This document shows, one piece after another, positions 18,292 to 28,869 of a stretch of DNA of 64,000 nucleotides. Each line of letters begins with the position of its first letter. The first letter of the stretch is position 1. The position numbers and the translations under genes were made by a program. The notes beneath the pieces were generated by a model. It saw only the letters and a program-made list of their open reading frames with translations, searched no databases and was not told where the DNA came from. Source of the DNA: Sedimentibacter sp. MB35-C1 (GTDB lineage Bacteria; Bacillota; Clostridia; Tissierellales; Sedimentibacteraceae); contig NZ_CP133188.1 of assembly GCF_030913635.1 (NCBI RefSeq), positions 2,356,001 to 2,420,000 on the forward strand, written 5' to 3'.

Positions 18292-19128
18292 TTACATTTC
18301 CCCCAACTTCTGAAATTTATCAATAATAACCTGATAACCTTCTGTATATTCTATCTTCGGATTATTATAAAATTCTCCTATAAGAATTTTATTCTTGCCT
18401 TTTTCAGGATCTTTGTCGACAACCCTTTTGTCTACGCAGTTGTCTTTCAAGAATTCATGCATTTTCAATGCATTTCCCTTTTTATTTTTTCGACCGTAAT
18501 ATGTAGGACATAAACTTAATCCTTCAATAAATGAAAAGCCTTTATTCTGCAGTCCTTTTTCGATGAGTTTCTGCATAAGCAAGGCATGGTATGCAGTTCC
18601 TCTTCCTACAAACGTTGCTCCGGCTCCCTGTGCCAGGTTACATAGGTCAAACGGTTTATCTATGTTACCGAAAGGAGCAGTTGTCGCAAAATCTCCGTGA
18701 GGTGTAGTAGGAGAAAATTGGCCTCCAGTCATACCATATATATTATTGTTAAATACTATTGTAGTAATATCTATATTTCGTCTTGCCGCGTGAATTAAGT
18801 GGTTACCGCCTATTGCCGAACTATCTCCATCTCCCATTATTACGATAACATGAAGCTTTGGGTTTGCGAGTTTGATACCTGTGGCAAATGCAAGCGCACG
18901 TCCGTGTGTTGTATGGAGAGTGTTAAAATCTAAGTACCCAGGTGCTCGTGATGAGCATCCTATACCTGAAACAACTACTACCTCATCTTTGTTTAACCCC
19001 AGCTTGTCTATTGCCCTGACAACAGTGTTCATCAAAGTTCCGTGACCGCAGCCTGGGCACCATATATGAGGCAATCTTTCGATTCTATAATATTTTTTTG
19101 TTATATCACTGCAATTTGTGCAACCCAT
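18292..19128 (-). CDS. korB: 2-oxoacid:ferredoxin oxidoreductase, beta subunit (TPP-binding)
   Basis: Thiamine-diphosphate subunit of 278 residues. WCPGCGHG (23-30) is the conserved N-terminal cluster region; GIGCSSRAPGY, TTHGRALAFATG and the TPP/Mg motif GDGDSSAIGGNH...NNNIYGMTGGQ (from about 99) identify it. It converts a 2-oxoacid plus CoA to acyl-CoA, CO2 and reduced ferredoxin. It begins at an ATG overlapping the korA stop by 1 bp. Middle gene of korDABC. Confidence 0.95.
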   Translation of the reverse strand: MGCTNCSDITKKYYRIERLPHIWCPGCGHGTLMNTVVRAIDKLGLNKDEVVVVSGIGCSSRAPGYLDFNTLHTTHGRALAFATGIKLANPKLHVIVIMGDGDSSAIGGNHLIHAARRNIDITTIVFNNNIYGMTGGQFSPTTPHGDFATTAPFGNIDKPFDLCNLAQGAGATFVGRGTAYHALLMQKLIEKGLQNKGFSFIEGLSLCPTYYGRKNKKGNALKMHEFLKDNCVDKRVVDKDPEKGKNKILIGEFYNNPKIEYTEGYQVIIDKFQKLGEM

Positions 19129-22184: not shown

Positions 22185-23231
22185 TTATTTATTTTCAGTT
22201 ACAAGACTCCCTGTGTGAATCAATTCATTATTCAGGTATATATTGTATTCTCCGCAAATCGCTTTGTTGTCTTTGTTCAAAATATGGGGAGCCGTAATAT
22301 TTAATTCATAACGTATATTTTCTGTTTCATCTTCTGACAGCAGGTAACTGAAACTGTCCGATATGAAAACAGGATTTCCGCTTGACATTCTGCCCGCAAA
22401 CTGCCCTTCTTCAACAATCTGATAACTTTTATAATTTTCGAAAGCCCAGTCAAACAAATTGTAGCTGTCAGAAAACCAGTTGCTGTCGTTTAAAACTACC
22501 ACTATAATCTCAGTTCCGTCTTTTTCAGCTGATGCAACTAAGCATCTGCCTGCGGCTTTCGTGTAACCAATTTTTATACCGTTGCCGTACTCATAATCAT
22601 GAACAACCTTGTTTTTATTATAAAATATAGTATTAACACTTTCTGCTTTATACTTTTCAGCAGAAGATATAGTCTTAAATGTATCATTTTTCATGGCATG
22701 ACGGCTGATTAGAGCCAGGTCATATGCTGTGGAATAGTGGTTATCATTATGAAGACCGTGAGGATTTTCAAAATTAGTGTTGAAAGCCCCAAGTTCATAC
22801 GCTTTTTCGTTCATCATTTCCACAAATTTGTCCTCTGATGTTCTTCCTGCATAAAGAGCTAGTGCGCTTGCAGCATCATTGCCTGAGCGGAGCATAGTCC
22901 CATACAGCAAGTCCTTTATAGAAACTTTTTGTTTAGGCCTCAAATATATGCTGGAGCCTTCAATGCCTGTGCATGATGCCGGAACTTCAATTTTTTTATC
23001 TATGTCATCTATGTTCTCAATAGCTAAAATTGTTGTTATAATCTTTGTAGTACTTGCTATGGGTAATTTTTCATTTGGATTCCTTGAACATAGTATTCTT
23101 CCTGAATCAGAATCCACTACTATATAAGCTTGAGCAGATACTTCGGGTATAGCTTTGGCAATATTGTAATTTAGGCTACAGATTAACATAAGAGCCGTGA
23201 AAAATAAAATTTTTATATTTTTAATACTCAC
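22185..23231 (-). CDS. D-alanyl-D-alanine carboxypeptidase-like protein (S11), KTG box altered
   Basis: Exported penicillin-binding-protein-like carboxypeptidase of 348 residues that would trim pentapeptide side chains, probably in spore peptidoglycan given its position beside scpAB and a GerW-like gene. A signal peptide covers about 1-28. SxxK is S60-TT-K63 and SxN is S116-G-N118, but the third box reads K220-I-G222 instead of KTG/KSG. The start is GTG at 23231, with GAGGGAG about 10 nt upstream. The altered box may lower activity. Confidence 0.85.
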   Translation of the reverse strand: MSIKNIKILFFTALMLICSLNYNIAKAIPEVSAQAYIVVDSDSGRILCSRNPNEKLPIASTTKIITTILAIENIDDIDKKIEVPASCTGIEGSSIYLRPKQKVSIKDLLYGTMLRSGNDAASALALYAGRTSEDKFVEMMNEKAYELGAFNTNFENPHGLHNDNHYSTAYDLALISRHAMKNDTFKTISSAEKYKAESVNTIFYNKNKVVHDYEYGNGIKIGYTKAAGRCLVASAEKDGTEIIVVVLNDSNWFSDSYNLFDWAFENYKSYQIVEEGQFAGRMSSGNPVFISDSFSYLLSEDETENIRYELNITAPHILNKDNKAICGEYNIYLNNELIHTGSLVTENK

Positions 23232-24057: not shown

Positions 24058-24079
24058 CGCTTGTTCCTACGTTGCTTTT
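24050..24079 (-). terminator. Hairpin over scpB end and ytfI-like start
   Basis: AAAAGCAACG (24050-24059) and CGTTGCTTTT (24070-24079) make a perfect 10-bp stem with a 10-nt loop and a T-rich tail on the minus strand. The scpB stop codon and the AGGA of the next gene lie in or beside the loop, so it can act as a terminator or attenuator. Confidence 0.65.
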
Positions 24080-24597
24080 TTTCCCTCCTCAAATTCTATT
24101 TTCAATGCAGGAAGTTCATCGATGGAATTAAGACCGAAGTGCTTTAAAAATCCATCAGTTGTTGCATATAGAGATGGTCTTCCCGGTTTATCCAGCTTAC
24201 CAACCTCTTTAATAAGTCCCTTTTCTACAAGACCTTTAACTACGTTTGAGCACTTAACTCCTCTTATTAGTTCTATTTCAACTTTTGTAACAGGCTGTTT
24301 GTATGCTATTATAGATAATGTCTCCATTGAAGCGGTAGACAAGCTTCTATTTACAGTTGTTTGCAGCAGATTTTGAATAAATTCAAAATTTGCTTTTTTT
24401 GTTGTTAATTGATAAGAACTGCCAAACTTCTGGAGAATAAGACCTCTGTCAGTATCCATAGAAAATTGATCTGCCATTTCATCCAAGGCAGAAGTAACTT
24501 TGTGAGCAGGCATATTCAATAATTTTGATATTTCATTTACATTTAGAGGTTCTCCCCAAGCAAAAAGTAAGCTTTCAAGTACACTTTTTAAATTCAT
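24067..24597 (-). CDS. scpB: Segregation and condensation protein B
   Basis: Winged-helix kleisin partner of SMC, 176 residues, needed for chromosome condensation and segregation. LLFAWGEPLNVNEISKLL, STASMETLSIIAYKQPVTKVEIELIRGV and GRPSLYATTDGFLKHFGL are classic ScpB motifs. The ATG at 24597 follows TAGGAG; an in-frame GTG at 24603 is less well placed. It follows scpA by 8 bp. Confidence 0.95.
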   Translation of the reverse strand: MNLKSVLESLLFAWGEPLNVNEISKLLNMPAHKVTSALDEMADQFSMDTDRGLILQKFGSSYQLTTKKANFEFIQNLLQTTVNRSLSTASMETLSIIAYKQPVTKVEIELIRGVKCSNVVKGLVEKGLIKEVGKLDKPGRPSLYATTDGFLKHFGLNSIDELPALKIEFEEGKKAT

Positions 24598-24605
24598 ATA
24601 CACTC

Positions 24606-25325
24606 CTATGCAGCAATTATAATTATATCGCTGTATGTATCAGTTTGATAAATTTTTATATCCTGTTTGTTTGATACTTCTAGAACAGCAAGAAATGCAG
24701 TAATTACATACTCTTTTGTTATTTTGTCCTTCTCTCTGAACGTTTCAAACAATGAAACACGACCTGATATTTTTATTTTTTTTAAAAGTTCTTCCGTACA
24801 ATCCTTGACGCTGTAATTTTCTCTGTATACCTTTAGCTTTTCTTCGCCTGCTATTTTCAAATTATGATTTTTCAGCAATGAAATAAACACATTGTATAAC
24901 TCGTATATATTTATTTCGTTAAGCGAAAGCTGTTCAGTTTTTGAATCGGAAGTAACTGCTATTTCTTCCTTGGGTTTTGAAAAGTAATAGCTGTTTTCAT
25001 CCTCATATTTTTTCAGTGTTTCAGATATTTCCTTAAACAATTTATATTCCAGAAGTTTGCTGACCAATTCTTGTCTTGGATCTTCTTCTTTTTCCTTCTG
25101 GGGCAGCAGCATTTGTGATTTTATTTCAATGAGTGTTGAAGCCATTAAAATAAATTCGCTGGCAACATTCATGTTAAACTGCATCATTTGATTAATATAT
25201 TCAAGATATTGGTCTGTTATTTCTGCAATAGGAATATCATAAATATCTATTTCTTTTTTTTCAATCAGGTGGTACAGCAAATCAAATGGTCCCTGAAATA
25301 TGCTTAAACTCACGGAATAATCCAT
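24606..25325 (-). CDS. scpA: Segregation and condensation protein A
   Basis: Kleisin subunit of the SMC-ScpAB condensin complex, 239 residues. The N terminus SIFQGPFDLLYHLIEKKEIDIYDIPIAEITDQYLEYI and the segment LLPQKEKEEDPRQELVSKLLEYKLFKE are characteristic, with a C-terminal winged helix. The ATG at 25325 has AGAGGA upstream. It is 11 bp after the DacF-like gene and heads scpAB. Confidence 0.95.
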   Translation of the reverse strand: MDYSVSLSIFQGPFDLLYHLIEKKEIDIYDIPIAEITDQYLEYINQMMQFNMNVASEFILMASTLIEIKSQMLLPQKEKEEDPRQELVSKLLEYKLFKEISETLKKYEDENSYYFSKPKEEIAVTSDSKTEQLSLNEINIYELYNVFISLLKNHNLKIAGEEKLKVYRENYSVKDCTEELLKKIKISGRVSLFETFREKDKITKEYVITAFLAVLEVSNKQDIKIYQTDTYSDIIIIAA

Positions 25326-25336
25326 TGTTCATCCTC

Positions 25337-26494
25337 TTATTTCATTATAGTATTCAGTATATTATTAAGATAAAATTTAAAAAGTCCTTCCTTATCAATA
25401 TCCTTTTCAGGATAAAGATCGTACTCTCCAAGGACTTGACCGTTCCTTGAAAGAATAGCCTTTCCTATTGCAACATCTTTGCTTAAAGGTGCTTTTAAAT
25501 TTTCATCTATTAAATATTCTAAATTAAAATCTTCAATTTTACAATTACTTTCTGTAAAATAAAAAATATTTTCTTTACTTACAACATTGAAGTTTTCTTC
25601 CTTTCCGCAGTACACAGGTGAAGAGGAAATTGCTTCGCCTTTTTTATGAAATACAAGATTTTTATAATTAGCAAAGCCTTCGTTTAGCAGTTTTGTAATT
25701 TCATTAAAACGAATTTTTGTAGTGTCGCATCCCAGCACAACTGCTATTAATGTAGTATCATTCCTTTTGGCCGCAGCTGACAGGCAATACTTTGCATCTG
25801 TTGTATATCCGGTCTTGCCTCCCAAAAGTCCTTCGTAGTTGTTTATCAATCTGTTTGTATTTACAAGTACCTGCTCAGAGTCTTTCTCTTTGCCAACCCA
25901 CACAGAATCCATCCAAGTAAGCATATATTCGTTAACATAATTATATTTAAGTAACTCTTTTGTCATTATTGCAATGTCGTTAGCTGTTGTTAAGTGTTCA
26001 GGTTCCGGAAGTCCTGTAACATTTACAAAATTAGTATTGTTCATGCCCAGTTCTTTTGCCCGGTCATTCATTGCCTTAACGCAGCCTTCTTCTGAGCCGT
26101 ACATAAATTCAGCCATTGCAACTGAAGCATCATTTGCGGAACGCATTGATATGGCCTTCAGCATACTTTCAACATTTTGAGTTTCATTAGCTTCGAGATA
26201 TATTTGACTTCCGCCCATTCCGGCGGCATACTCTGAAATTGTCATCTCCTGATCGAGTTTTATTTCCCCTCTATCCATCTTTTCTGAAATCAGCAATAAA
26301 AGCATAATTTTTGTTATACTTGCCGGCGGCATTTTATCATTGCTGTTTTTTTCAAAAAGTACCTGACCGTCATCACCGTTTATCAGTATTACTGCGTTTG
26401 ACACTAAAGCATCAGGCTCAATTCCAAATGCGGGAATGGCAGTCAAATTTGCGATTAGTAACATCAAAAAAAACATGGCTATGTATTTCTTCAT
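25337..26494 (-). CDS. dacF: D-alanyl-D-alanine carboxypeptidase (DacF type)
   Basis: Exported serine D,D-carboxypeptidase (S11) of 385 residues, removing terminal D-Ala in cell-wall or spore-cortex peptidoglycan. All three active-site boxes are standard: SITK, SAN (RSANDAS) and KTG (GGKTGYT), followed by a C-terminal PBP5-like domain. A signal peptide covers about 1-24. The ATG at 26494 has a strong AAGGAGG; longer starts would include it. The gene follows deoB as dacF follows drm-punA in Bacillus. Confidence 0.93.
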   Translation of the reverse strand: MKKYIAMFFLMLLIANLTAIPAFGIEPDALVSNAVILINGDDGQVLFEKNSNDKMPPASITKIMLLLLISEKMDRGEIKLDQEMTISEYAAGMGGSQIYLEANETQNVESMLKAISMRSANDASVAMAEFMYGSEEGCVKAMNDRAKELGMNNTNFVNVTGLPEPEHLTTANDIAIMTKELLKYNYVNEYMLTWMDSVWVGKEKDSEQVLVNTNRLINNYEGLLGGKTGYTTDAKYCLSAAAKRNDTTLIAVVLGCDTTKIRFNEITKLLNEGFANYKNLVFHKKGEAISSSPVYCGKEENFNVVSKENIFYFTESNCKIEDFNLEYLIDENLKAPLSKDVAIGKAILSRNGQVLGEYDLYPEKDIDKEGLFKFYLNNILNTIMK

Positions 26495-26658
26495 AAAAAT
26501 TACCTCCTTTTTATGAATTAGAATAACCATATTTTGTTGATATATACAGTTGTCTTACATTTCGTGAGTTTTTTCATGAAATGTACAAAAACCGTTGAGG
26601 TATGAATATAATCGTATTATGCTTAACGGATGATTTCACGCAAAGTTTTATCTATAAA

Positions 26659-26758: not shown

Positions 26759-27931
26759 TTATTTAAGTATATTTCCCAGCACGCTTGTTCCTTCGATGTG
26801 GTTTTCTATATTAAACATGTTAAGAATTGTCTTGCCTATGGATGCATAGGTATCTAGGATGCCTAAATTGTTATTTCCTTGAATGTTTTTTCCGTATAAA
26901 ATTAAAGGAATATACTCTCTTGAATGATCGGTACTTTCAGTTGTAGGATCGCACCCATGATCTGCAGTAATTATGAGTACATCATCTTCCTTAAGGTTAT
27001 CAATTATTTCCGGAAGCTTGTCATCAAAGTATTTCAAAGCATCGGCATAACCCTGCACGTTGTTTCTGTGACCATATACCATGTCAAAGTCAACAAGATT
27101 AGTAAAAATTAAGCCTTTAAAATCTTCTTTCATTGCATTCAATGTTGCTTCAATGCCTTCTTTGTTGTTGTGGGTATGGTTAGATTTCGTCATTCCCTTA
27201 TTAGCAAATATATCTTCAATTTTTCCTATGGCGAATACTTCCATACCGTTATTTTTAATATAGTCTAACATAGTGTCTTCAGGAGGAAGCAATGAAAAGT
27301 CTCTTCTGTTTTCTGTTCTTGTGTAATTTCCATCTTTGCCGATAAACGGCCTTGCTATAACCCTGCCTACACCGTGCTCTCCCTTAAGCATTTCTCTGGC
27401 AGTTGCACAGATTTTGTAAAGTTCATTTAGCTGTACAACCTCTTCATGAGCTGCTATTTGAAATACAGAATCTGCAGATGTATATACGATAAGATTTCCT
27501 GTTTCAATGTGCTCATTGCCTAATTCTTTGATAATCTCTGTTCCTGAAGCAGGATAGTTTCCAATTGTTTTTCTCCCTACTTTTTTTTCAAATTCATCTA
27601 TGAAATCTTTTGGGAACCCTTTTGGGTACGTTGGAAATGGCTTTTCAAGCACCAGGCCGCTTATTTCCCAATGGCCGGTTGTGGTATCCTTACCTTTTGA
27701 TTTTTCAGTACACTTGGCAACAGTACCGGTATAACTGTCGGATTTTTTTATATCCTCAAATCCATCAATATTTAAAAGACCTAATTTTTCTAAATTAGGC
27801 AGTGAAAAATCATCTATATTTTTATATATATTTTTTACTGTATTGCTACCGATATCTCCGTAATCTGCAGCATCTGGAAGTTCACCAACTCCCACGCTGT
27901 CCAATACTATTAAAACTGCTCTGTTTATCAT
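26759..27931 (-). CDS. deoB: Phosphopentomutase
   Basis: Interconverts ribose/deoxyribose 1-phosphate and 5-phosphate in nucleoside salvage. The 390-residue protein starts [26 protein letters not shown] and holds [16 protein letters not shown] and the late [20 protein letters not shown] metal motif of the alkaline-phosphatase superfamily. The ATG at 27931 has AGGGAGG upstream. It follows xerD as in Bacillus (ripX-drm). It could use ribose 1-phosphate made by the nucleoside phosphorylase elsewhere in this window. Confidence 0.97.
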
Positions 27932-27993: not shown

Positions 27994-28869
27994 TTATACT
28001 CTTGGAAATGTCTTTTTAAACACTTCCAATGATTTAAATTCAACGCTACATAAATAGTTCTGAGCTGCAGCAAGGCTGCTAAGTCCCATCAACTCCTGAA
28101 CGGTTCCGAGATCTGCTCCGTTAGAAAGCAAATGAACCGCAAATGAATTTCTTAATATCTGGGGCGACAATTCCTTGCCTAATTTCATTTTTTTCTCGTA
28201 AAACTTTAATATTTTCCAAATCCCCTGCCTTGAAATTGATTCGCCGGTAATATTGATAAATAGGAATTCATTGTCTTCTTTACATTTCTTATCCCTGAAG
28301 TTATTCATGTAATTGTAGATTGAATTGTTTGCATGTTTACTTAATGGAACTATTCGTTCTTTCTGTCCTGATATGTTAATTATGCCGGTATTAAGATTAA
28401 TGTCACTTTTTTTGATGTTTATCAGCTCAGTCACTTTAATTCCGGAAGAATACAATAATTCCAGTATTGCTGAATCTCTGCTTCCTTTGAATGTGTCTGT
28501 ATCCGGCTGTTTCATCAAAAGGGTTACTTCATTCTCGGAAAGTACCGCAGGAGATTTTTTAATTTGTTTAGGGCTGTGTATGCTTATTGCAGGATTGTTA
28601 TCTACAAGCTTGTCTTTTTTTAGAAATTCAAAAAAATTCTTAAGTGCTGAGATAGTTCTTGATATAGTTGAAGAACTTTTACCCTGTTTTTGAAGGTTCA
28701 CAAGATACGTAAGTATGTGAGCTTTTTTGGTTTTAACTAATCCAAGCTCATAATTATTGTAAAGATATTCTTTAAAGCTGTTTACGTCATAAATATACGA
28801 ACTTATGGTATTATCGCTTAATTTTTTTGAAATAAGATACAACTTATAGTTAACTATATTTTTATCCAT
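27994..28869 (-). CDS. xerD: XerD-like tyrosine recombinase with degenerate active site
   Basis: Recombinase-fold protein of 291 residues, normal XerC/D length, with SAM-like N-terminal domain (1-90) and catalytic domain (107-291). Aligned to E. coli XerD, the nucleophile Tyr272 and Arg240 are kept, but the first catalytic Arg is Lys145 (GIKVTEL), the first His is Gln237 (SPQILR) and the second His is Leu263 (MGLSS). Spacing is preserved (237/240, 263/272), so the changes are substitutions, not misalignment. Position before deoB matches ripX. Dimer resolution by this copy is doubtful. Confidence 0.9.
   Translation of the reverse strand: MDKNIVNYKLYLISKKLSDNTISSYIYDVNSFKEYLYNNYELGLVKTKKAHILTYLVNLQKQGKSSSTISRTISALKNFFEFLKKDKLVDNNPAISIHSPKQIKKSPAVLSENEVTLLMKQPDTDTFKGSRDSAILELLYSSGIKVTELINIKKSDINLNTGIINISGQKERIVPLSKHANNSIYNYMNNFRDKKCKEDNEFLFINITGESISRQGIWKILKFYEKKMKLGKELSPQILRNSFAVHLLSNGADLGTVQELMGLSSLAAAQNYLCSVEFKSLEVFKKTFPRV

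Follow-up and report, generated by a model that had tools for sequence, protein, structure and literature searches.

XerD is usually taken as an obligate half of the XerC/XerD resolvase. A second function has been reported for XerD of B. subtilis, the unloading of SMC at the terminus (Karaboja 2021, as cited in PMC12322038 and PMC13342612). In the XerS/difSL, XerH/difH and XerL systems one Xer acts on a two-arm terminus site of roughly 30 bp; the site adjoins the xer gene in XerS and XerH, and in XerL it is a long perfect inverted repeat (PMC9765430, PMC5357621). MrpR (YopR) of phage SPbeta has a recombinase fold in which several catalytic residues are lost; it does not recombine, and it requires its Tyr to bind DNA (PMC10516654). 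In XerH a change of the first catalytic Arg alone to Lys (R213K) serves as a catalytic-mutant control (PMC5241119), and crystals of the corresponding control of Tn1549 Int, R225K, show that DNA is still bound (PMC5871717).

The DNA analysed here, referred to as the window, is a stretch of 64,000 nucleotides from Sedimentibacter sp. MB35-C1 (contig NZ_CP133188.1, positions 2,356,001 to 2,420,000), whose genome is a single contig of 3.62 Mb. A preliminary description had placed at 27994-28869 a XerD homologue lacking three of its six catalytic residues. The open reading frame is real and encodes a XerD orthologue, on the minus strand, which had been left unstated. We hold with fair confidence that this is a non-catalytic DNA-binding XerD, that a lone Xer linked to lexA is the resolvase of the genome, and that unloading of SMC is the candidate role of the window protein. 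The gene and its neighbours are as follows:

27994..28869, minus strand: xerD orthologue of 291 aa whose active site is degenerate (domain profiles, alignment, genus comparison)
26759..27931, minus strand: phosphopentomutase gene deoB, the syntenic neighbour (Pfam Metalloenzyme superfamily; deoB by synteny)
24606..25325, minus strand: scpA, condensin subunit, with conserved linkage to xerD (Pfam SMC_ScpA)
24067..24603, minus strand: scpB, condensin subunit (Pfam SMC_ScpB)

Active site of the window protein and of its relatives

The best-scoring family for the window protein is TIGR02225 (XerD), at 272.8 bits, which is below the curated equivalog cut-off of 329.6; the N-terminal SAM-like domain (PF02899) and the C-terminal integrase domain (PF00589) are both above their cut-offs. 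The protein is like XerD/RipX of E. coli and B. subtilis in its best family match, its two-domain fold, the synteny with deoB and the presence of Arg247 and Tyr279. It is unlike them in the loss of R148, K172, H244 and H270, in the sub-cut-off score, and in the lack of a B. subtilis-type dif in its genome, searched to 3 mismatches. Mapping of residues on E. coli XerD (PDB 1a0p) and relatives gave the following positions:

28435..28437, minus strand: codon of K145 (AAA), equivalent to XerD R148, the first catalytic Arg (DNA and alignment)
28357..28371, minus strand: shortened beta2-beta3 turn SGQKE, residues 167-171, without XerD K172 and with K170 nearby (alignment, model)
28159..28161, minus strand: codon of Q237 (CAG), equivalent to XerD H244 (DNA and alignment)
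28150..28152, minus strand: codon of R240 (AGA), equivalent to XerD R247, kept in 159 of 160 XerD relatives (alignment, class survey)
28081..28083, minus strand: codon of L263 (CTT), equivalent to XerD H270 (DNA and alignment)
28054..28056, minus strand: codon of Y272 (TAT), equivalent to XerD Y279, the nucleophile, invariant in the genus (alignment, class survey)

Active XerD carries the set R-K-H-R-H-Y, and in its place the window protein has K, no Lys at 172, Q, R, L and Y. The three substitutions described earlier, of Arg148, His244 and His270, are borne out by the alignment and by the codons, and so is the retention of Arg247 and Tyr279. The count of three was too low, as K172 had been missed. 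The GKGNKER of E. coli XerD, which carries K172, corresponds to SGQKER in the window protein, whose beta2-beta3 turn has two residues fewer and therefore no Lys at 172. This brings the number of altered catalytic residues to four of six, although K170 is only one position off.

The preliminary description had asked whether relatives have the same substitutions, and similarly degenerate orthologues, intact and of full length, were indeed found in 23 of 25 Sedimentibacter genomes (60-98% identity); window-type xerD was not found in the other two. R148 is kept in one of these 23 sequences and replaced by Lys in 18 and by Asn in 4; H244 is replaced by Gln in 21 and by Met in 2; H270 is kept in one, the other 22 having Leu. 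All 23 keep R247 and Y279, K170 is conserved in 22, and the alignment contains many invariant columns. A gene with 98% identity from an independent genome (L008/L037) has identical active-site residues. Sequencing error at the changed codons, which had been named as a possible source of the substitutions, was rejected because independent genomes carry the same residues. The sister genera (L076, L077) show R148K and H244Q and retain H270, so the active-site residues were lost stepwise. One genus member (L047, genome G020) is the only one to retain R148 and H270; its H244 position is Gln and its hairpin is short.

The median pairwise dN/dS of xerD in the genus is about 0.12 (0.17 for the N-terminal and 0.10 for the C-terminal domain), a value resting on the 36 pairs with usable dS, the remaining pairs being saturated at synonymous sites. 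The window gene is therefore under purifying selection. A wider survey took in 160 XerD sequences, drawn from the order and from class Clostridia. On a tree for which the trait columns had been left out of the alignment, at least 19 changes are required at R148, at least 23 at H244 and at least 12 at H270, compared with 1 at R247 and 3 at Y279; these counts are approximate, since the tree was made rapidly, its branches are long and the alignment is uncertain in the hairpin. Lys172 was excluded from the counting because the length of the loop varies. An order-wide loss of Lys172 was considered and rejected as an alignment artefact of this variable loop, many relatives keeping a Lys there. The replacements were mostly conservative, with 55 K among 60 changes at R148 and 55 Q among 78 at H244. 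In some Tissierellales the XerD orthologue is about 260 aa long and stops before the nucleophilic Tyr (L139, L141 and L142 in genomes G056, G066 and G028; L137 in G039). Repeated catalytic loss under purifying selection would mean that XerD in many Clostridia does something else, which depends on the fold and on the Arg and Tyr that bind phosphate and can do without the chemistry.

The recombinase fold is kept in the AlphaFold model of the window protein (pLDDT 87.8). The closest solved structures are XerA and XerH, and the structural neighbours include MrpR (Z 14.9) and SroF (Z 17.0). The window protein shares with MrpR the tyrosine-recombinase fold, the loss of several catalytic residues and the retained Tyr. 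It differs in that MrpR is a phage-encoded repressor, less than 25% identical to recombinases, which keeps the Lys and has lost the Arg that the window XerD kept.

Catalysis by the window protein is very probably lost or strongly impaired, as judged from its residues. Some weak activity is possible, given that K170 lies beside the lost K172, that the Tyr and one Arg are kept and that the changes are conservative. A stronger form of this idea is that the protein is still a recombinase or nicking enzyme, with K145 standing in for R148, K170 for K172 and Q237 for H244, perhaps at another site. The invariance of Tyr272 and Arg240 in the genus, nearly complete in the class, the conservation of K170 and the mostly conservative replacements would agree with it. 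However, changing the first Arg alone to Lys is how catalytic-mutant controls of XerH and Tn1549 Int were made, Leu at the H270 position is unable to hydrogen-bond, and MrpR keeps its Tyr for binding DNA without recombination, so that retained enzymatic function seems unlikely. Taking together the R-to-K controls, the precedent of MrpR and the kept fold, the window protein is most likely a non-catalytic DNA-binding protein. On this reading the XerD orthologue, catalytically dead or nearly so, would no longer resolve chromosome dimers and would persist as a sequence-specific DNA-binder gripping the phosphate via Arg240, Lys145 and Tyr272. Sequence pipelines that label such a gene as active XerD would mislead.

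The lexA-linked Xer and a candidate dif at the terminus

Seven integrase-family loci exist in the genome, the window gene included. The search for other Xer genes that had been proposed yielded one intact Xer-type gene, adjoining lexA (G000:C1:2336027-2336995), about 48 kb from the window gene, with R-K-H-R-H-Y and the GKGNKER motif. It is the only other intact chromosomal Xer-type gene, and its best profile is XerC, with a score below the cut-off. Another locus, at G000:C1:3584141 (L002), is related to this Xer gene and broken by an in-frame TAA stop, and the rest look like element integrases. The lexA-linked Xer is present throughout the order, including family f4, in which the order survey found no XerD orthologue, and the two genus genomes without detected XerD still carry an intact Xer of this type. 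Across most of the genus xerD is 60-81% identical as against 74-87% for the lexA-linked Xer, so xerD evolves faster.

A search pattern was derived from other families, in which 28-bp palindromes with a 6-bp centre precede the lexA-linked Xer. The own genome contains one such palindrome, TATGTCGCAAAA-TATCTA-TTTTGCGACATA, with perfect arms of 12 bp (G000:C1:2333753-2333782; L301 7754-7783). It is single-copy and intergenic, about 22 kb to the left of the window and 2.2 kb upstream of the lexA-linked Xer. The pattern TATGTCGCAAAA-N6-TTTTGCGACATA occurs exactly once per genome in 13 of the 25 genus genomes (reversed-pattern control, 0) and was unmatched at this stringency in the other 12, several of which are incomplete. 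The centre is nearly always TAGATA or its complement among the genus matches, and in all nine genomes in which both could be measured on one contig, 0.6-2.2 kb separate the palindrome from the start of the Xer gene downstream. In the one genome analysed for GC skew, the cumulative skew peaks at 2,336,500-2,338,000, and the window as well as all stretches sampled beyond it have negative skew; the palindrome lies within about 4 kb of this switch and is thus at the replication terminus. Variants of the form [AT]GTCRCAAAA-N6-TTTTGYGAC[AT] are found across the order, including family f4. In phage records the palindrome had only partial matches, of the kind expected by chance.

With regard to the dif search that had been suggested, no B. 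subtilis-type dif was found in the own genome with two patterns at up to 3 mismatches, a search that could miss a divergent site, and the palindrome emerged as a candidate instead. Matches to the B. subtilis patterns across the order at 3 mismatches were apparently no commoner than in the reversed control, and no more than two genomes of the class matched when 2 mismatches were allowed. The B. subtilis dif pattern may therefore not fit Clostridia, and a divergent XerC/D dif may still exist. For an order in which that motif gives no convincing match, the palindrome is a concrete dif candidate.

The palindrome is noncoding, about 28-30 bp long, with two arms and a 6-bp centre, as is expected of a single-recombinase site; the Legionella XerL site was proposed on the same criteria and tested afterwards (PMC9765430). 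The lexA-linked Xer resembles XerS, XerH and XerL in being one Xer with a two-arm terminus site of such length, XerS and XerH in the site adjoining xer, and XerL in the long perfect inverted repeat. It differs from all three in the sequence of the recombinase and of the arms, and in that a XerD orthologue coexists in the genome. We infer that the palindrome is dif and that the lone lexA-linked Xer suffices to act on it, and the two can be regarded with considerable confidence as a single-recombinase Xer/dif system. Dimer resolution would then have passed to this Xer, acting alone on a perfect terminus palindrome. The preliminary description had offered two possibilities, chemistry carried out by another Xer or a change of the window protein to a DNA-binding or structural role. 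The intact Xer with its terminus palindrome, and the kept fold under purifying selection, favour both together. It should be noted here that some Tissierellales with a related palindrome retain a XerD having R-H-R-H-Y, so the loss of catalysis is not a simple consequence of a single-Xer system.

A XerC/D pair with the window protein as its catalytically silent member is not supported: the arms are identical, and the family without XerD keeps the same Xer and site. In a related proposal, it would be a non-catalytic partner of the lexA-linked Xer in a mixed tetramer at dif, affecting strand order or the response to FtsK. Xer proteins interlock via their C-termini, and a C-terminal segment ending in FPR is conserved in XerD across the genus. 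In V. cholerae, integration of the CTX phage needs XerD, which does no chemistry there (PMC5357621). Against this, identical arms leave no separate half-site for a second protein, families and two genus genomes without XerD keep an intact Xer, and f4 genomes keep the site, which makes a mixed tetramer quite improbable.

Several minor features were observed around these sites. Second palindromes, AGTTTACATAA-N5/6-TTATGTAAACT, lie close to the Xer gene at L270 1408-1435 (G057) and L151 879-905 (G053), and repeat the TTATGTAAACT half of B. subtilis dif. Extra copies of such palindromes occur at six places in G187, at G064:C54:167005 and at L343 4270-4295 (an IMG/VR contig), some of them at contig ends or on a viral contig; these are possibly elements integrating at dif. 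In most of the genus (L255-L267, L059, L060) a half-site TTTTGCGACATT lies just 3' of the TATAAT box of the lexA-linked xer, possibly pointing to autoregulation; the own genome and G018 do not have it because the upstream gene differs.

Linkage to scpAB and the role of the window protein

In all 20 loci compared from the order and class, scpA is downstream of xerD, co-directional and within 9 kb, and scpB is there too in 18, while in one of the 20 scpB would fall beyond the stretch examined. The linkage suggests a condensin-related role for the window protein, as far as gene order can indicate; it could also be passive, an ancestral synteny of Clostridia. The window protein is the orthologue of the B. 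subtilis SMC unloader; in relatives as in the window, scpAB are linked to its gene, downstream of it. B. subtilis XerD is also an active resolvase, which the window protein would not be. By analogy with the function reported in B. subtilis, removal of SMC-ScpAB near the terminus is put forward tentatively as the leading candidate role of the window protein. The single half-site TTTTGCGACA occurs 15 times in the own genome, two of these belonging to the palindrome; enrichment at the terminus is not clear, and so there is no evidence for XerD-type half-site arrays. One such half-site is in the window near the terminus, at 18682-18691 on the minus strand.

A wider scheme, which we regard as rather doubtful, would be a natural separation of function in Clostridia, whereby a lone Xer with a palindromic dif took over dimer resolution, and the chemistry of XerD was lost repeatedly, the protein being kept as a dedicated DNA-binding unloader of SMC-ScpAB at the terminus. 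The degenerate XerDs would serve as natural separation-of-function alleles for asking whether the reported SMC role is independent of recombination.

A function as transcriptional repressor or regulator, like phage MrpR, would be suggested by MrpR and SroF being among the structural neighbours and by the signature of lost residues and kept Tyr that MrpR shares. However, no palindromic operator was seen near the window gene, and the gene is by synteny an ancestral chromosomal XerD rather than phage-derived; this role is very improbable. Slow decay of a gene with no current function, for which its faster evolution, its absence from two genus genomes and family f4 and the truncations before the Tyr could be cited, is extremely improbable for a gene that is intact in 23 of 25 genomes, with many invariant columns and a low dN/dS that is lower still in the catalytic domain.

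Two D-alanyl-D-alanine carboxypeptidase genes (peptidase S11) closely flank scpAB, at 22185-23231 and 25337-26530 of the window.
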